From a virus: DNA of 40,694 bases. Position numbers and translations under genes: made by a program. Location of the stretch: the IMG/VR virus record IMGVR_UViG_3300033153_003406, positions 1-40,694 of that record; one strand, given 5' to 3'. The notes under the pieces were generated by a model, which saw only the letters and a program-made list of their open reading frames with translations, ran no database searches and had not been told where the DNA came from. How positions within the stretch are numbered: position 1 is the stretch's first letter; every line of letters begins with the position of its first letter. Shown here one piece after another: positions 2,481 through 38,960 of the stretch.

Positions 2481-2876
2481 TTACTTATTAAGTAGTTCTT
2501 TTATTTTTGTTGCCATTTCTCTTGCTTCCTGTTTAGTTTTAAAATAATTACCAAACTCTATTATACTCATATCATCTGTACTTCTTTCATTGTAATTCCT
2601 CCAATATACATCTCCATCAAAAGAAACAATATAATACTCTTCTCCTTCTTCTGGCTTCCATTTCTTTGGTTTGTCGGCTGGTTCTATTAGTTCTTTTACT
2701 TTATTAACTTTTTCTTTCACATCTTTTGCTATACTAATTATTTCTTGTTCAAATTGTTTTCCTGATAAATCTATTTCTTCCTTGCTTTTAAGATAGTCTA
2801 TTAGTTTGTTTATAACCATAATTATTTCTGCTGACTCAATTTTTCCTTCTACTATTTTCTCTGGTAGTAATTTCAT
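2481..2876 (-). CDS. Hypothetical early phage protein with WxPxxGE domain
   Basis: 131 residues. The N-terminal 65 are helical and charged. The C-terminal 65 (KKWKPEEGEEYYIVSFDGDV, then a GNYFKTKQEAREMATKIKELL segment) form a small beta-then-helix domain commonly seen in phage early proteins, where a displayed-value-like beta sheet is followed by the GN.FKTKEEA helix. Biochemical role unknown. Its leader (2877-2976) contains a structured element. Confidence 0.6.
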   Translation of the reverse strand: MKLLPEKIVEGKIESAEIIMVINKLIDYLKSKEEIDLSGKQFEQEIISIAKDVKEKVNKVKELIEPADKPKKWKPEEGEEYYIVSFDGDVYWRNYNERSTDDMSIIEFGNYFKTKQEAREMATKIKELLNK

Positions 2877-2909
2877 ATTTATTTATTTTAGTGTGTTTTT
2901 TACAAACCC

Positions 2910-2967
2910 CCTCCGAGTCGCCCATAACTCACATGTATACATGTTCACGAGAAAGGAACGACTCAGA
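2910..2967 (-). other. Structured intergenic element with perfect 14-bp palindrome
   Basis: Bases 2931-2944 are the perfect palindrome ACATGTATACATGT. They are enclosed by CTC/GAG and then by an outer stem, GAGTCG (2915-2920) against CGACTC (2959-2964), with two internal loops. Read as minus-strand RNA this makes one long hairpin in the leader of 2481-2876. No U-tract follows, so it is not an ordinary terminator. An operator or an RNA processing/regulatory element is possible. Confidence 0.6.
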
Positions 2968-2976
2968 TAAAGGATT

Positions 2977-3339
2977 TTAGTATTGATCTGGAACAGGAAG
3001 TATTATACCCATCTTTCCAGCCTCTCTTTCTATTTTATCAAGATACAAACCAAACTGGATTTTATTTAATACTGTGGTTGATCTAACTACTGGTAATCTT
3101 TGAGAATGATCTGTTAAAAACATTGATCTGAAAGTTGTATGTAATTCATCAGGAGTGAATCCAGTATCATTTGATATTATACTTAACCACATCCAATAAA
3201 GAGCGTTTTGCTGTAAACTTCTAATGGCCCTAACTTTCTTTATCTCTATCTGAACTTTACCTTTCTTTAATGACTTGAGATATTCCTCTATTCTTTTTAA
3301 TACTTTAGTAGTATCTTCTAATTCAGAAAAAAACATCAT
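2977..3339 (-). CDS. NinB-like recombination accessory protein
   Basis: 120 residues. The central stretch VRAIRSLQQNALYWMWLSII, followed by a TGFTPDELHTTFRSMFL helix and a LDKIEREAGKMGIILP end, matches the layout of NinB-type (lambda orf-like) recombination mediators. It sits in one operon with an ERF annealing protein and a Cas4-like nuclease, which supports a role in phage recombination. The ATG follows the upstream stop by 1 bp. Family assignment by eye, moderate certainty. Confidence 0.6.
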   Translation of the reverse strand: MMFFSELEDTTKVLKRIEEYLKSLKKGKVQIEIKKVRAIRSLQQNALYWMWLSIISNDTGFTPDELHTTFRSMFLTDHSQRLPVVRSTTVLNKIQFGLYLDKIEREAGKMGIILPVPDQY

Positions 3340-3340
3340 A

Positions 3341-3610
3341 TTACATTGGTATATCTTCTACGCCAATATCTGTTTCTGAAGAATTAGTTGGTTCTTCAAC
3401 TACAGGTAGAGACGCTCCAGTATATTCATCTTTTTTCTCTTTTGACTCAGAAACATAGATAATAAAATGAGGATGTGTTTCCTTCTCTTTTTTCTTATTA
3501 GGAAATACTACAATCTGAAACTCTCCTCTCATATCTTCTAAAACTCCTGAAAAGTATTGTCCTACATTTTCTCCTTTTTTAAGCCATAAACAACCAATTT
3601 TTTTATTCAT
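3341..3610 (-). CDS. Small beta protein with SSB-like acidic tail
   Basis: 89 residues. The first 55 (IGCLWLKKGENVGQYFSGVL, then a FQIVVFPNKKK segment and HPHFIIYVSE) form a compact all-beta domain resembling DUF736-like or OB-type phage proteins. Residues 60-89 form a disordered acidic tail ending DIGVEDIPM, close to the DDIPF tail by which SSB recruits replication proteins. It lies between the NinB-like and Cas4-like genes of the recombination cassette. I infer a single-strand DNA accessory role. Confidence 0.55.
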   Translation of the reverse strand: MNKKIGCLWLKKGENVGQYFSGVLEDMRGEFQIVVFPNKKKEKETHPHFIIYVSESKEKKDEYTGASLPVVEEPTNSSETDIGVEDIPM

Positions 3611-3611
3611 A

Positions 3612-4193
3612 TTATTTTAATTTATTAATTTCTAATGCTACTTTTTTGACCTTTCCAGAAAATAAAATTATATCTGATAATCTTATTTTCCTTTTAAAGT
3701 TTTGAAACTTACCTGTTAAATATAATCTTTTATACTCATCTTTTTTTGTTTCAACCCAATGAACATTTATCTTTGGCACTATTCCATACTTTAGCCATAC
3801 CAATAAAGCATAAAATAATAATTGATCATGTTTGTCTACTTTTCTTTGATCCCACTTCAATCCTGTTTTATATTCTCCAATCGGTTTTGATTTTCCGTTC
3901 CAACCATCTAAATATCCTAATAATGGAATACCATGTAATTTAGTTTCAATTTTAAACTCTTTCTTTTTATAAGTAGGCAATATCTCTTTCATCATTCTAA
4001 TATCTTCTCTATCGCTTTTATCTTCTTCTAAAGCTTTAGCAAACTTTTTACCAAAACTTAGATATTCAGATTGTGGTCTTTCTTCCCCATCAATATATAT
4101 TCTTTTGTATTGCTTAGGGCTACCAACAAAAGTGCTATATTGAGTCCAAGAAATATATCCACGAGGCAGTTTAAGTTTTTGAAAGTTCATCAA
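3612..4193 (-). CDS. PD-(D/E)XK nuclease, Cas4/RecB-like
   Basis: 193 residues. The core reads LLGYLDGWN (catalytic Asp), about 10 residues later GEYKTG (the ExK), then DQLLFYALL (the RecB/Cas4 QxxxY motif position). The N-terminal S-x-x-Q-x-x-x-F region matches the usual start of Cas4-like exonucleases. No four-cysteine Fe-S cluster is seen. Adjacent to and overlapping the ERF recombinase gene by 23 bp, it probably supplies the exonuclease for single-strand annealing recombination. MNF at 4190 is an equally possible start. Confidence 0.8.
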   Translation of the reverse strand: MMNFQKLKLPRGYISWTQYSTFVGSPKQYKRIYIDGEERPQSEYLSFGKKFAKALEEDKSDREDIRMMKEILPTYKKKEFKIETKLHGIPLLGYLDGWNGKSKPIGEYKTGLKWDQRKVDKHDQLLFYALLVWLKYGIVPKINVHWVETKKDEYKRLYLTGKFQNFKRKIRLSDIILFSGKVKKVALEINKLK

Positions 4194-5982: not shown

Positions 5983-7620
5983 TCATAATAATGGTTTAGG
6001 TGTCGCCTTTAATCTTGCTTCTGCTATTTTTACATACTCCTCTTCTTTTTCTATTCCTATAAAGGGTCTTCCTATTCTTTTTGCCGCAATTAAAGTTGTT
6101 CCACTTCCAGCAAATGGGTCAAGCACTATCCCTCCTGTTGGAGTTTTAGTTAGTAAGCATAGGTATTCCATTAGTTTTATGGGTTTTACCGTTGGGTGAT
6201 TGTTTTTATTATAGATATTTCTTTCATTTCCTGAACCTGTTTTAAAATTAGATTTTTCTCCACCTATTTTATCAAGTTCGGTCATCACCTTCTCCTCCAA
6301 CCCCTCACAACCCATATTCCTTTCTGCTTTACTTGCTTTTGCTACATAAAAGAAACGAGATGCTCCTCCCTTGTCGCCATAATTTAATTCAGGAGGATAA
6401 CGACTTTCTTTTAACCATTGATTTTTCATTTTAGGAAATTCGCTTCTATTTTTTCCACTACTCAACTCCCCACTCTGTTCATCTAACATTTTTGCTGCTT
6501 CTTCATCTAATATGATGTTTGCTGGGAAACGACCACCTGTTTTTACATTTTCAACCATTGTATTTTTCTTACCCAATTCACCCTGACAAAAAACTCTATC
6601 CCCAGTTTCTGTTTTACATCCTTTTTCAACTCTTAATTTAGGATTAGAAGCAACTGTTCCACCTTTTTCATACTCTATCCTCCCCCCATCTATATTCAAT
6701 CCTGATACTCCGTGTTTAAGGGCATTCTGGGCATAGCTTCCTTCGTTAGGTTTCATTGCTACTATTATTGGCTCATAAGCAGGTTTTAATCCGTGACTCT
6801 TATGTGAACCCCATTCTCGTACTTCTTGTGGAGTGTGTTGTTCGCAAAAAGCACAAGGTTTTCTATCTGATTGTTGCTTGGATTGTGGTCTATGTGATGA
6901 ACAACTTCTATCCTTTGGAGTATCCTGCCAAGTTTCTGTGCCATAACCAAACGGTGTTCCATTACATATCCATCTTTCCTTGCCATCTTCAACCACTTTT
7001 TCGGACATCTGACATACTTTACACCTTGATAATTCCCTTTTGGTCGTTTGTATATCAATCCTCCCTTCCAAGCTGGATTGTTCTTTCCCTTCGGAAATCT
7101 GTGTTTGTTTGGATAATCTCCTTTGAGTGGGTATGCTCTGTTCCGACAAGCTGTGCTGCAAAACTTCCCCTTGTTTATCTTTAGAGTTGATGGTCTGCGA
7201 TAAATTGGTTTCTGACACAAGTCGCAAGTTGTATTTGGTTTTCTGTTCGGCTTCTTCATACGCTTCCATATTACCACACTTACATTGTTTAATCAAGTTC
7301 TTTTTAATGTCTGTTGCTTTTGGAAATCCTGTGGAATACAACCACATAATACAATCTTTTAATATCCAACCTGCGTCTTCAATATTTACAGCCATTCTGT
7401 GTTGTGTTCTTGTTCCCGCAAAACAGAGTAATGTTGCTCCTGGTTTTGCTACTCTTAACATCTCTTTCCATGTTTCTACACTTGGGACATCATAATCCCA
7501 TTTCTTGCCCATAAACTCTAATCCATAAGGAGGATCGCAAAGAATAGTATCTATACAATTATCTGGAAATGTTCTCATAACTTCCACACAATCACCATTA
7601 TAAATCTTATTTACTTCCAT
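5983..7620 (-). CDS. DNA N6-adenine/N4-cytosine methyltransferase carrying an HNH insertion
   Basis: 545 residues. Motif IV DPPYG is at residues 29-33 and the SAM-binding FAGSGTT near 503-509, an order typical of beta-class phage methyltransferases. A conserved GLKPAYEPIIVAMKP segment follows about residue 280. Residues about 121-278 are unlike a methyltransferase: rich in Ser, Gln, Lys and Glu, with no domain. Exactly this stretch is covered in another frame by an HNH endonuclease gene (6786-7259). The host frame has no stop through the insert, so an enlarged but full-length enzyme can be made. A phage role in protecting DNA from restriction is inferred. Confidence 0.88.
   Translation of the reverse strand: MEVNKIYNGDCVEVMRTFPDNCIDTILCDPPYGLEFMGKKWDYDVPSVETWKEMLRVAKPGATLLCFAGTRTQHRMAVNIEDAGWILKDCIMWLYSTGFPKATDIKKNLIKQCKCGNMEAYEEAEQKTKYNLRLVSETNLSQTINSKDKQGEVLQHSLSEQSIPTQRRLSKQTQISEGKEQSSLEGRIDIQTTKRELSRCKVCQMSEKVVEDGKERWICNGTPFGYGTETWQDTPKDRSCSSHRPQSKQQSDRKPCAFCEQHTPQEVREWGSHKSHGLKPAYEPIIVAMKPNEGSYAQNALKHGVSGLNIDGGRIEYEKGGTVASNPKLRVEKGCKTETGDRVFCQGELGKKNTMVENVKTGGRFPANIILDEEAAKMLDEQSGELSSGKNRSEFPKMKNQWLKESRYPPELNYGDKGGASRFFYVAKASKAERNMGCEGLEEKVMTELDKIGGEKSNFKTGSGNERNIYNKNNHPTVKPIKLMEYLCLLTKTPTGGIVLDPFAGSGTTLIAAKRIGRPFIGIEKEEEYVKIAEARLKATPKPLL
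6786..7259 (-). CDS. HNH endonuclease nested inside the methyltransferase gene
   Basis: 157 residues from ATG 7259 (GTG at 7277 would add six). The N-terminus has a Cys4 zinc finger: C-x-x-C (CDLC) and C-x-x-x-C (CSTAC). The C-terminal domain reads YVMEHRLVMAQKLGR, then VVHHIDHNPSNNQIENLVLF, the signature of phage free-standing HNH nucleases. It lies wholly within 5983-7620 on the same strand in a different frame and stops just where methyltransferase homology resumes. Base composition is less AT-rich than its surroundings. It must be translated by internal initiation; no strong Shine-Dalgarno is seen. Probably a mobile homing-type endonuclease. Confidence 0.85.
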   Translation of the reverse strand: MKKPNRKPNTTCDLCQKPIYRRPSTLKINKGKFCSTACRNRAYPLKGDYPNKHRFPKGKNNPAWKGGLIYKRPKGNYQGVKYVRCPKKWLKMARKDGYVMEHRLVMAQKLGRILQRIEVVHHIDHNPSNNQIENLVLFANNTLHKKYENGVHIRVTD

Positions 7621-8251: not shown

Positions 8252-8464
8252 TTAACATAGGTTAAGTTTTTTAATTAATCTTTTAAGACATTTACTATAT
8301 TTTTTGGTGTCGCCATTAAAGTTATTCAAGTTAGTAAAACAGGGTTTAATTTTAATCTCTATATCAGTTGATAAATTAAAAGTATCTATTTCAGGATAAA
8401 TCAAACGATTATTCTCGGCAACTACGAAATTGTATAAAATCCTTTTTTCTAATTTAGTTAACAT
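8252..8464 (-). CDS. Small hypothetical early protein
   Basis: 70 residues, MLTKLEKRILYNFVVAENNR with a basic C-terminus (KCLKRLIKKLNLC). Its ATG overlaps the stop of the preceding 45-residue gene (ATGTTAA), indicating coupling. Both proteins end in the same four residues, NLC-type (INLC and LNLC), which may be chance. Function unknown. Confidence 0.5.
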   Translation of the reverse strand: MLTKLEKRILYNFVVAENNRLIYPEIDTFNLSTDIEIKIKPCFTNLNNFNGDTKKYSKCLKRLIKKLNLC

Positions 8465-8595
8465 AGGTTAATTAGATTCCCCAAATAATTAATATATGTT
8501 TTTAATTCTTTATTTGTTTTTTTATTAAAAACCCTTCCAGTATCAGTAATCTCGTATTTCTCAATAGCTTTTTTAAGTATATCTTCTTGTTTCAT
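8458..8595 (-). CDS. NUMOD/HNH N-terminal fragment
   Basis: 45 residues. The segment KYEITDTGRVFNKKTNKELK resembles the NUMOD4-like start of phage HNH endonucleases (YEISDxGRVxxxxTxKxLK), but the protein ends after YINYLGNLINLC with no HNH core. It is probably the remnant of a degraded homing endonuclease, or a domain kept for another use. It carries the AACTAACTAA leader and overlaps the next gene's start. Confidence 0.55.
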   Translation of the reverse strand: MKQEDILKKAIEKYEITDTGRVFNKKTNKELKTYINYLGNLINLC

Positions 8596-36003: not shown

Positions 36004-37461
36004 TTATGTATAATCCTGATTACCATAAATGTTAAACTCTTCACTTTGAGAAGTATCATCTGGTTTTTGGACTATTTCTGATTGATATTGTAATGCATCT
36101 CCTAAATCATCAAACTTTGATTTAGGAAATCTAACTAATTCATCTATTAAATCATTTGTATTATCTTCTGGATTCTTTTTTAAAAATATACTTTTAGATT
36201 CAAATCTTCCTTGTAATCTTCCTCTAATTCTATCTTCTTTACGAACTCCTTTGTCTTTAAGCTCTTCTATTGTAAAAAAGATATTCCTTTTTCTCATTTC
36301 TTGATCTAAATATGGTTTAATCAAATCTTCAAATGCTTTTTGCTCTACTCCAATCTTTAAAGGTTTCCAATAATTACGGAGATCAAATATCTTATCAATA
36401 AGCTGTGGAGTATTTCCTTTGAATCTTTCTACATGTCTTAAATACCACTTATTATTTATATCCACCGAGCAAACTATTATTCCAATATAATCTGTTCCTT
36501 CTTTAGTTGACGGAGCATTATCTAATGTTATAAAAGTATTCAATGTTTTTCCTTTCAAATCTTCATCAGTATATTTATTTTCAAACCAACTTCTTTTAAA
36601 GTCGGCATTTTCATCGTCAATTGGATTATTTAAATACAAACAAGAAAAATCATAACTTCCTATTTCCTTTTTTATATTCTCTAAACTTTCTTTTGTAAAC
36701 TTCTCTGGAAATATTGGTAATCCATTCTCATCAAAACATCCTCTAATAAATACTGGCAATTCAGGATACTCTTCTAAAAGCCATCCATGTAAATCATCAA
36801 AATGCCAACGAGTCCCTATATCTATCTGAATTCCATTTTCTTCTAACAAAGAAACAGAATCTCTCCAATACTGCTTCACTTTATCCATTTGCTCTTTAGT
36901 TCCTATATTATTTCTGCTAACTAAATCATCTGCTATTATTATATCATAATGCTGACTAACAAGGGAAGTGTCAACTGATCCAGTTTGTATTGTAGGTTCT
37001 TTTCTGTTTACTGTTCGTGGTTTTATTATAATTTGAGTTTCTGTCCATTTTTCTCTTTCATTAACCCACTCCCCATACAATTCTTTAAATTTTTCACTTC
37101 TTTCAAAATGTGTTTTGATTTCTCTTAAAAAAGATTTAGAGTTTTCTAATCTTTCATTTGTAATAAGTATTCTTAAATTAGGATTCTTGATTAGTTGTTG
37201 GATCGTCCAACTTATCGTTACCTCCGTTGTCTTCAGATGAGTTCTCGGTATTAGGATTATTGCTTTGCTTTCTATCGTCTTCAGAAACTCTGCTATCTCT
37301 CGATGTATCTTTCCGAACTTTGGATATCCCAGAATCTCTTCCATTAGAAATAACAGATCCGTCTTTCCCTTTTCCATTTCCATTCTTTTCAATTTTTCTG
37401 TTTTCAATATCAGCAATTCTCTTTTCAATACCTTTAACTCTGATGTTGATTTCTTTGTCAT
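36004..37461 (-). CDS. terL: Terminase large subunit
   Basis: 485 residues. Deviant Walker A PRTHLKTTE at 72-80, Walker B DIIIADDL at 173-180, and DIGTRWHFDDL. The nuclease part has FITLDNAPSTKEGTDYIGI and FDDLGDALQY, the RNase H-like metal sites. The ATPase-nuclease packages DNA into the head. Its first 94 codons overlap terS in another frame; a shorter start at 37383 (MEMEKGKTDLL) would still overlap by about 206 bp. Confidence 0.92.
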   Translation of the reverse strand: MTKKSTSELKVLKRELLILKTEKLKRMEMEKGKTDLLFLMEEILGYPKFGKIHREIAEFLKTIESKAIILIPRTHLKTTEVTISWTIQQLIKNPNLRILITNERLENSKSFLREIKTHFERSEKFKELYGEWVNEREKWTETQIIIKPRTVNRKEPTIQTGSVDTSLVSQHYDIIIADDLVSRNNIGTKEQMDKVKQYWRDSVSLLEENGIQIDIGTRWHFDDLHGWLLEEYPELPVFIRGCFDENGLPIFPEKFTKESLENIKKEIGSYDFSCLYLNNPIDDENADFKRSWFENKYTDEDLKGKTLNTFITLDNAPSTKEGTDYIGIIVCSVDINNKWYLRHVERFKGNTPQLIDKIFDLRNYWKPLKIGVEQKAFEDLIKPYLDQEMRKRNIFFTIEELKDKGVRKEDRIRGRLQGRFESKSIFLKKNPEDNTNDLIDELVRFPKSKFDDLGDALQYQSEIVQKPDDTSQSEEFNIYGNQDYT

Positions 37462-37766: not shown

Positions 37767-38960
37767 TCACACCTTTTTAGCTTTATTTCCAGTATAATCC
37801 TCCCACCTTTTTATTATTACATCTACATATTTTGGATCTATTTCCATACCATAGCATATTCTGTTTGTTTTTTCACAAGCGATTAATGTTGATCCTGAGC
37901 CTATAAAAGGATCTAATACAATATCATTATCTTTTGTCATTAATATTATTCCTTTAACCGGTAATGCTACTGGAAAACAAGCTTTATTTATCTCATTTTG
38001 ACTTTTGAATGTATCTATATACCAATAATTACTTAATTTCTTTAATGTTCTTTTGTTAAACACCACTCCCCTTTCATTAGTCCCTAAATAATTATAATCT
38101 ATTTCATGATTTAAAATATCTTCATCTATTCCAGCCAAAACCATTTCATATCTTCTTGTTAATCCATCTCTTTGAGTTATTGGCATTCCATGCCCTTTGT
38201 CCCAAACTATATTTTCTAAAAATCTAAACTTTGTTTCTTTTAAAATATTATTAAAAATTATTATCCAATCATCTTTACTATTTTTATTATAACTTATATT
38301 CCAAAAAAGAAATCCTTTAATAAAATCTTGAACATTCTTTATAACTTTAATATTAAAATCTATGTATTTCTGACTTTCTAAATTATCTTTATATTCATTA
38401 TAATAACTTTTATTTGCCATATTATATGGCGGACTCGTAAAACACAACTTAGCTTCTTTATCCATCAATTTCTCTACATCTTCCTTCTTTGTAGCATCGC
38501 CACACATCACTCTGTGTCGTCCTAATTCCCACACATCTCCTTTCTGTGCGACTGTTGGAGCATTATCTGGTATTATATCGTCTTTATCATCCGGCTCTAT
38601 TAAAAGGTCTTTATCAAATCCAGTTAGATCAAACATTTCTGGACTTAATTCTTTCAGATCTTCAATAGCCAATCCCATATCCCAATCACTTTCATTCAAT
38701 TTATTATCTGCTAATCTGTATGCTTTGGCCTGTTCTTCTGATAAATCTACTTTTAAAAAAGGAACTTCATCAAATCCTAATTCTTTTGCAGCCAACCATC
38801 TTCCATGTCCTACTATGATTATATTATTTTTATCAATCACTATTGGCTGATTAAAACCAAATTCTTTTATACTTTCTGCGATCTGTTTTATTTGTTTAGT
38901 AGGATGTTTTTTAGCATTCTTTTCATATGGTTTTATTAAATCAATATTAATTTTGTCCAT
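37767..38960 (-). CDS. ParB-nuclease-domain fused DNA methyltransferase
   Basis: 397 residues. Residues 1-110 are a ParB/Srx-like domain: PYEKNAKKHPTKQIKQIAES, FNQPIVIDKNNIIIVGHGRW, YRLADNKLNESDWD. Residues 140-397 form a beta-class methyltransferase with CFTSPPYNMANKSYYNEYKD (SPPY motif), and VLDPFIGSGSTLIACEKTNR (SAM motif I). Such fusions occur in many phages next to terminase. It probably modifies the phage DNA to resist host nucleases. No partner restriction enzyme. Confidence 0.9.
   Translation of the reverse strand: MDKINIDLIKPYEKNAKKHPTKQIKQIAESIKEFGFNQPIVIDKNNIIIVGHGRWLAAKELGFDEVPFLKVDLSEEQAKAYRLADNKLNESDWDMGLAIEDLKELSPEMFDLTGFDKDLLIEPDDKDDIIPDNAPTVAQKGDVWELGRHRVMCGDATKKEDVEKLMDKEAKLCFTSPPYNMANKSYYNEYKDNLESQKYIDFNIKVIKNVQDFIKGFLFWNISYNKNSKDDWIIIFNNILKETKFRFLENIVWDKGHGMPITQRDGLTRRYEMVLAGIDEDILNHEIDYNYLGTNERGVVFNKRTLKKLSNYWYIDTFKSQNEINKACFPVALPVKGIILMTKDNDIVLDPFIGSGSTLIACEKTNRICYGMEIDPKYVDVIIKRWEDYTGNKAKKV

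Follow-up and report, generated by a model that had tools for sequence, protein, structure and literature searches.

An HNH endonuclease gene in a shifted frame inside a phage DNA methyltransferase gene whose own frame stays open

We show here that the codons of a phage HNH endonuclease gene are chosen so that the frame of the DNA methyltransferase (MTase) gene around it stays readable straight through. The two genes share one strand of the window, by which we mean the whole stretch of 40,694 nucleotides of viral DNA that was analysed. Taking all the data together, it is very probable that a mobile homing-endonuclease gene sits in a variable linker of the MTase, that it is tolerated there without splicing because its codons avoid host-frame stops; the HNH protein would be made by internal initiation.

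Results and Discussion

The first-pass annotation had proposed a complete HNH ORF lying wholly in the MTase gene, on the same strand but in another frame. ORF analysis, Pfam and PHROGs agree with this, and the coordinates proved to be exact (Table 1). The host ORF matches N6_N4_Mtase (PF01555, E 3e-33) and the nested ORF HNH_3 (PF13392, E 7e-10, over the gathering score), with concordant PHROGs results for both. In the MTase the motifs are intact, with motif IV DPPY near the start and motif I DPFAGSGT near the end, and its sequence relatives in the PDB are CcrM and other N6/N4 MTases. The HNH ORF starts with ATG at 7257-7259, has an in-frame GTG upstream at 7275-7277, and ends in a TAA (6786-6788) that is supplied by host sequence, namely the codons GGA TTA AAA for the conserved MTase residues G-L-K. 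The zinc finger cysteines C12, C15 and C38 are invariant in 19 relatives and C34 is nearly so, while H121, H122, N130, N134 and H144 of the core are invariant among relatives. AlphaFold gave the HNH frame a mean pLDDT of 80.8, with 92-95 in the core. With this model the top PDB match in Foldseek was the homing endonuclease I-HmuI, a weak hit (E 0.3); the HNH profile gave no match to the PDB by sequence.

Table 1. Positions of the MTase gene, the nested HNH gene and their parts in the window.
Feature	Position	Strand	Basis or remark
MTase host ORF, N6/N4 DNA methyltransferase, 545 aa	5983..7620	(-)	open end to end; Pfam, PHROGs
MTase N-terminal part, residues 1-109	7294..7620	(-)	motif IV DPPY at 7525-7536; AlphaFold pLDDT mostly ~90
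MTase C-terminal part, residues 275-545, starting SHGLKPAYEP	5983..6798	(-)	motif I DPFAGSGT near 6097-6120
Nested HNH endonuclease ORF, 157 aa + TAA	6786..7259	(-)	host frame = HNH +2; Pfam, PHROGs, AlphaFold
Zinc finger of HNH protein, C12, C15 ... C34, C38	7146..7226	(-)	conservation in 19 relatives
HNH catalytic core EVVHHIDHNPSNN...LHK	6825..6908	(-)	PF13392 and invariant residues
Same DNA in MTase frame: predicted disordered loop, ~residues 125-260	6841..7247	(-)	AlphaFold pLDDT <50
MTase-frame CKC (C113, C115), proposed first half of clamp	7276..7284	(-)	putative role
MTase-frame CAFC (C256, C259), proposed second half of clamp, from HNH codons	6844..6855	(-)	putative role

The element had been described as an insertion into the MTase. 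Relatives free of the insert do exist and carry a native linker, mostly 20-90 residues long, between the motifs GFPK and GTALKP. Compared with these relatives, however, the element in the window substitutes for the native linker and is not simply added to it. The linker takes other cassettes as well, because three insert-free loci (L002 2683-3072, L003 2792-3256 and L004 2370-2780) contain a helix-turn-helix-like module in a linker of 130-155 residues. Elsewhere in the window we saw a second methyltransferase gene (37767-38960, minus strand), a fusion of a ParB-like domain with a DNA methyltransferase (phrog_498, E 2e-100) that adjoins the terminase large subunit gene (36004-37461), and a 45-aa ORF (8458-8595, minus strand) with a weak match to the beginning of HNH endonuclease families (phrog_959, E 6e-4), which is perhaps the remnant of another HNH gene.

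The host frame is HNH +2, so that each MTase codon begins on the third base of an HNH codon. Because of this, a host-frame stop needs an HNH codon ending in T before AA, AG or GA. Across the HNH gene the host frame contains not a single stop, in agreement with the first-pass annotation, and the remaining frame contains 10 in the aligned core or 11 over the whole ORF. When synonymous codons were shuffled within the HNH gene, 9.5 host-frame stops were expected (p ~0.001); drawing codons as ten other genes of the window use them raised the expectation to 24.5, with an exact P(0) of 1.9e-21. In none of those ten genes does an alternative frame on the same strand stay free of stops for more than 73 codons. 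The open frame is not a product of high GC content, since the window has only 31% GC. Third positions of the HNH gene have 45% GC, compared to 23-26% in the MTase flanks.

We then collected the HNH family from viral contigs and prokaryote genomes by searches with the HNH protein or the HNH alignment, counting as members all matches with an HMM score >150. Among the best 80 of 512 viral matches and the prokaryote genomes, at least 81 distinct members were found, at least 76 of them nested in an MTase; a few of these 76 are cut by contig ends, yet are consistent with nesting. In 76 of 76 nested copies among the matches listed, the host frame is HNH +2 and free of stops. The searches cannot have selected for this openness, because the host frame played no part in them. 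Five members that are not nested serve as natural controls. Host-frame stops abound in them, with 23 in L026 (after a truncated MTase), 35 in L037 (between MTase fragments) and 19 in L091 (beside MTase fragments). At codon positions where a T would create a stop, none of 4,504 codons ends in T in the 76 nested copies, compared to 95 of 286 in the five non-nested ones, while at other positions T-ending codons are about as frequent in the nested (2,650/10,398, 26%) as in the non-nested members (173/609, 28%), again among the matches listed. Selection keeps the host frame open, and this frame is thus probably translated through the HNH segment, not spliced out as RNA. The idea of a nuclease gene that persists in a host gene by leaving its frame open is in this respect supported. 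A plasmid search with a peptide of L099, from one of its two frames, gave no match.

If so, ribosomes would continue in the MTase frame across the segment and produce an MTase with a disordered loop of about 150 residues, while the HNH protein would be made separately from the same mRNA. Our preferred guess is internal initiation at the ATG or the upstream GTG described above. The HNH protein could instead arise as an MTase-HNH fusion through a programmed +1 frameshift, which would be in line with the observation that Shine-Dalgarno sequences are not enriched over background before the HNH starts; to this we give only a slight chance, given that most copies inspected have an ATG where HNH homology starts or close by. 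Promoters and terminators were likewise found at background level only.

In the MTase frame the loop falls below a pLDDT of 50 at model residues 124-259 (Met1 was omitted from the model), with values of ~34 between MTase segments near 90. In MTases of this class, target-recognition regions occur between the MTase motifs. The linker lies at just such a place and holds other modules in relatives, so that the host-frame peptide might serve the MTase as a functional domain, in target recognition for instance, with the HNH frame being secondary. We consider this scarcely probable. The likeness between the host-frame peptides of nested copies is what the paired HNH proteins impose plus a small excess, and this excess is equally present in the third, non-coding frame. 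The loop is moreover predicted to be disordered and tolerates deletions (L323, L324; see below). Since conservation is no greater than the HNH frame imposes, we rejected the functional domain; a search of the host-frame peptide against the phage collection gave no match. Synonymous sites between distant nested copies are saturated, and openness is still kept. The host frame is constrained for openness only; the information sits in the HNH frame.

Could the element have already inactivated the MTase, with only the HNH gene being maintained? An unspliced loop of 150 residues could damage the enzyme, and phage Thibault has a broken host MTase frame near a different nested HNH. Such a loss is nevertheless very improbable here: the MTase motifs are intact, and the 76 nested copies have no host-frame stop while the relatives beside or between MTase fragments are rich in them. 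Least probable of all is a self-splicing intron that carries the HNH gene and has an open host frame only incidentally; HNH genes are frequent in group I introns and the annotators of the Omegavirus Schatzie suspected an intron at a different nested HNH, but the HNH ORF occupies nearly the whole segment, Rfam found no intron family in the window or in eight related loci, and an open frame is not required of an intron, whereas all 76 nested copies among the matches listed are open. A group I or II intron-borne endonuclease was rejected for the window, as no intron RNA core was seen by Rfam. The spliced intron, which the first-pass annotation had named as the outcome that would speak against its reading, was not found.

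Around the HNH gene of the window there are no intein ends and no splicing blocks A, B, F or G, and we call such copies bare. About 35 relatives among the matches listed (32 recognized by pattern and three by eye) instead have an intein in which the HNH lies out of frame. These inteins sit in the MTase at YG|SGFPKS and have Cys1, a sequence resembling block B (TDQIVSRNHR), a terminal ARRNGKIFITGN and Ser at +1. A profile of them hits the structure of the AceL NrdHF intein (E 3.7e-7); a profile was required for this, since intein models gave nothing over the cut-off on single sequences (best intein_Nterm, E 0.066). HNH homology runs from about codon 53 to about codon 306 of 340. Because it begins at about codon 53, its start overlaps block B, so that two conserved sequences share one DNA stretch. 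The literature we searched contained no account of an out-of-frame HNH in an intein with block B overlap; a preprint on actinobacteriophage inteins (bioRxiv 2025.01.02.630785, cited in PMC11855218) may already describe out-of-frame nucleases in inteins. An intein-borne out-of-frame HNH of the window family was also met in a huge phage (L022, LR756508.1, a 484-kb uncultured phage). The site YG|SGFPKS accepts conventional inteins too, because the MTase of a 59-kb phage contig (L012, ~2776-3770) has an in-frame intein-like insert there (CLTADTEVLT...ITGN).

On the HNH tree the bare and the intein copies are grouped, with 5 and 4 changes of label. On the MTase tree the labels must change 25 and 24 times, and 14 and 13 of these changes are forced by well-supported branches of this FastTree tree, many branches of which are weak. 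Insert-free genes are interspersed among the carriers, and the element appears scattered over the MTase tree, as expected of a homing element. Additionally, the filled loci L093 and L096 and the empty loci L202 and L189 have nearly the same flank proteins, with the element in place of the native linker; for the window MTase itself no nearly identical gene lacking the element was found. Two loci contain decay products of the bare element in which the host frame is kept, L323 (9889-10120) with most of the HNH deleted and L324 (1730-1966) with the N-terminal part of the HNH deleted. The tree conflict, the filled and empty sets and the deletion derivatives fit homing followed by decay. From the scatter and the filled and empty pairs we infer that the HNH protein would cut MTase genes without the element, and that repair templated by the carrier copy would bring in the element together with its flanks, displacing the native linker.

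In the host frame, 26 of the 38 bare copies among the matches listed combine a CxC at the insert's front with a CxxC at its end; seven of the others have neither, five have CxxC only and none has CxC only. The distances of these motifs to GFPK and GTALKP take few values. In 141 linkers, the insert-free ones never have CxC...CxxC in that order, and four have CxxC...CxC. The association of CxC with CxxC has a Fisher p of 0.006, uncorrected for kinship, for which there are too few independent pairs, and based on a coarser first classification. Both motifs recur in the same GFPK-to-GTALKP linker in the SG4-type element, which has an unrelated HNH, and at another site in L087. The CxxC comes from HNH codons in the window and its close kin and elsewhere from codons past the HNH core, as if it had been reached twice. 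The two motifs, close to the ends of the loop, perhaps form a clamp that would hold the loop shut around zinc. Bare and intein copies swap places within the HNH tree, and we tentatively raise the possibility that one HNH module moves between an intein and bare tolerance in the same MTase, with the clamp of the bare form substituting for splicing by pinning the loop shut.

Comparison with known systems

The window element shares its HNH core with the free-standing homing endonucleases of the I-HmuI type, but it is neither intron-borne nor intergenic. With inteins that contain homing endonucleases there is a closer link, as part of the window HNH family lies between blocks B and F at YG|SGFPKS of the same MTase; the nuclease is however out of frame, not fused in frame, and the window copy has no splicing domain. 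In split inteins ("fractured genes") a free-standing endonuclease gene lies between the intein halves. There, too, the nuclease gene is distinct from the splicing frame, but the host gene of the window is unsplit and the two frames overlap.

We also met another nested HNH type in an Omegavirus C5-methylase, where the C-terminal part of the MTase may be a separate ORF. In Mycobacterium phage Constella (L018 1647-3074 / 2147-2764, gp104/gp105), a C5 cytosine methylase (PF00145) has a nested HNH_3 in +1 relation, with no host-frame stop where 3.1 would be expected (p 0.009). Since the next ORF, gp106, also carries a methyltransferase annotation, this host gene is possibly split. In Mycobacterium phage Thibault (L024, from 1643) the HNH reads as in Constella and the MTase frame is broken by stops upstream of it. 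In the annotation of Schatzie (L019) the MTase was left undetermined, as intron boundaries could not be located.

The SG4/Applejack-type elements of mycobacteriophages, of which Applejack gp54/55 is reported as a further out-of-frame HNH case (PMC12613952), use the same linker and the same +2 relation and have CDC...CSWC at the loop ends, but their nuclease belongs to an unrelated subfamily (PF01844 HNH). Their host frame has no stop where 6.2 are expected, and the host-frame peptide is 95-100% identical over 21 mycobacteriophage records.

The closest precedent was reported in 2025 (PMC11855218). There the ShiLan domain of a mycobacteriophage was recognized as an out-of-frame HNH in a methylase, with an open host frame and no sign of an intron or intein; leaderless initiation was proposed for it, and a second case was given in Pacc40. 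The window element is of this kind, with a nested HNH ORF, an open host frame, no intron or intein domain and a disjunct distribution (on trees that are partly weak). Like the ShiLan element it is a patchily distributed HNH_3 with zinc fingers, and the phage methylases in which the two lie out of frame are related. It is not a ShiLan domain proper, however. The host frame is HNH +1 in ShiLan and +2 in the window family, the site follows LKPSYEP in ShiLan and is the GFPK-to-GTALKP linker in the window, the HNH HMM scores are only 33-49, a distant similarity, compared to at least 190 within the window family, and CxC...CxxC is not seen in the ShiLan-type insert. Because frame relation, site and HNH sequence all differ, the window family is a separate lineage.

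Counts over many copies, and not one example, now show that a selfish nuclease gene can live unspliced inside another gene by nothing more than codon choice. This makes the translation mode of the HNH, the tolerance of the host enzyme for the loop and the conversion between the bare and the intein-borne form testable. It also calls for caution with "extra domains" in methyltransferase annotations, which may be shadow translations of a nuclease. The first-pass annotation had taken the strategy to be undescribed, which the two reports above (PMC11855218, PMC12613952) contradict. The strategy was already published in 2025; the window contributes a separate and much larger lineage, part of which is hidden in inteins.
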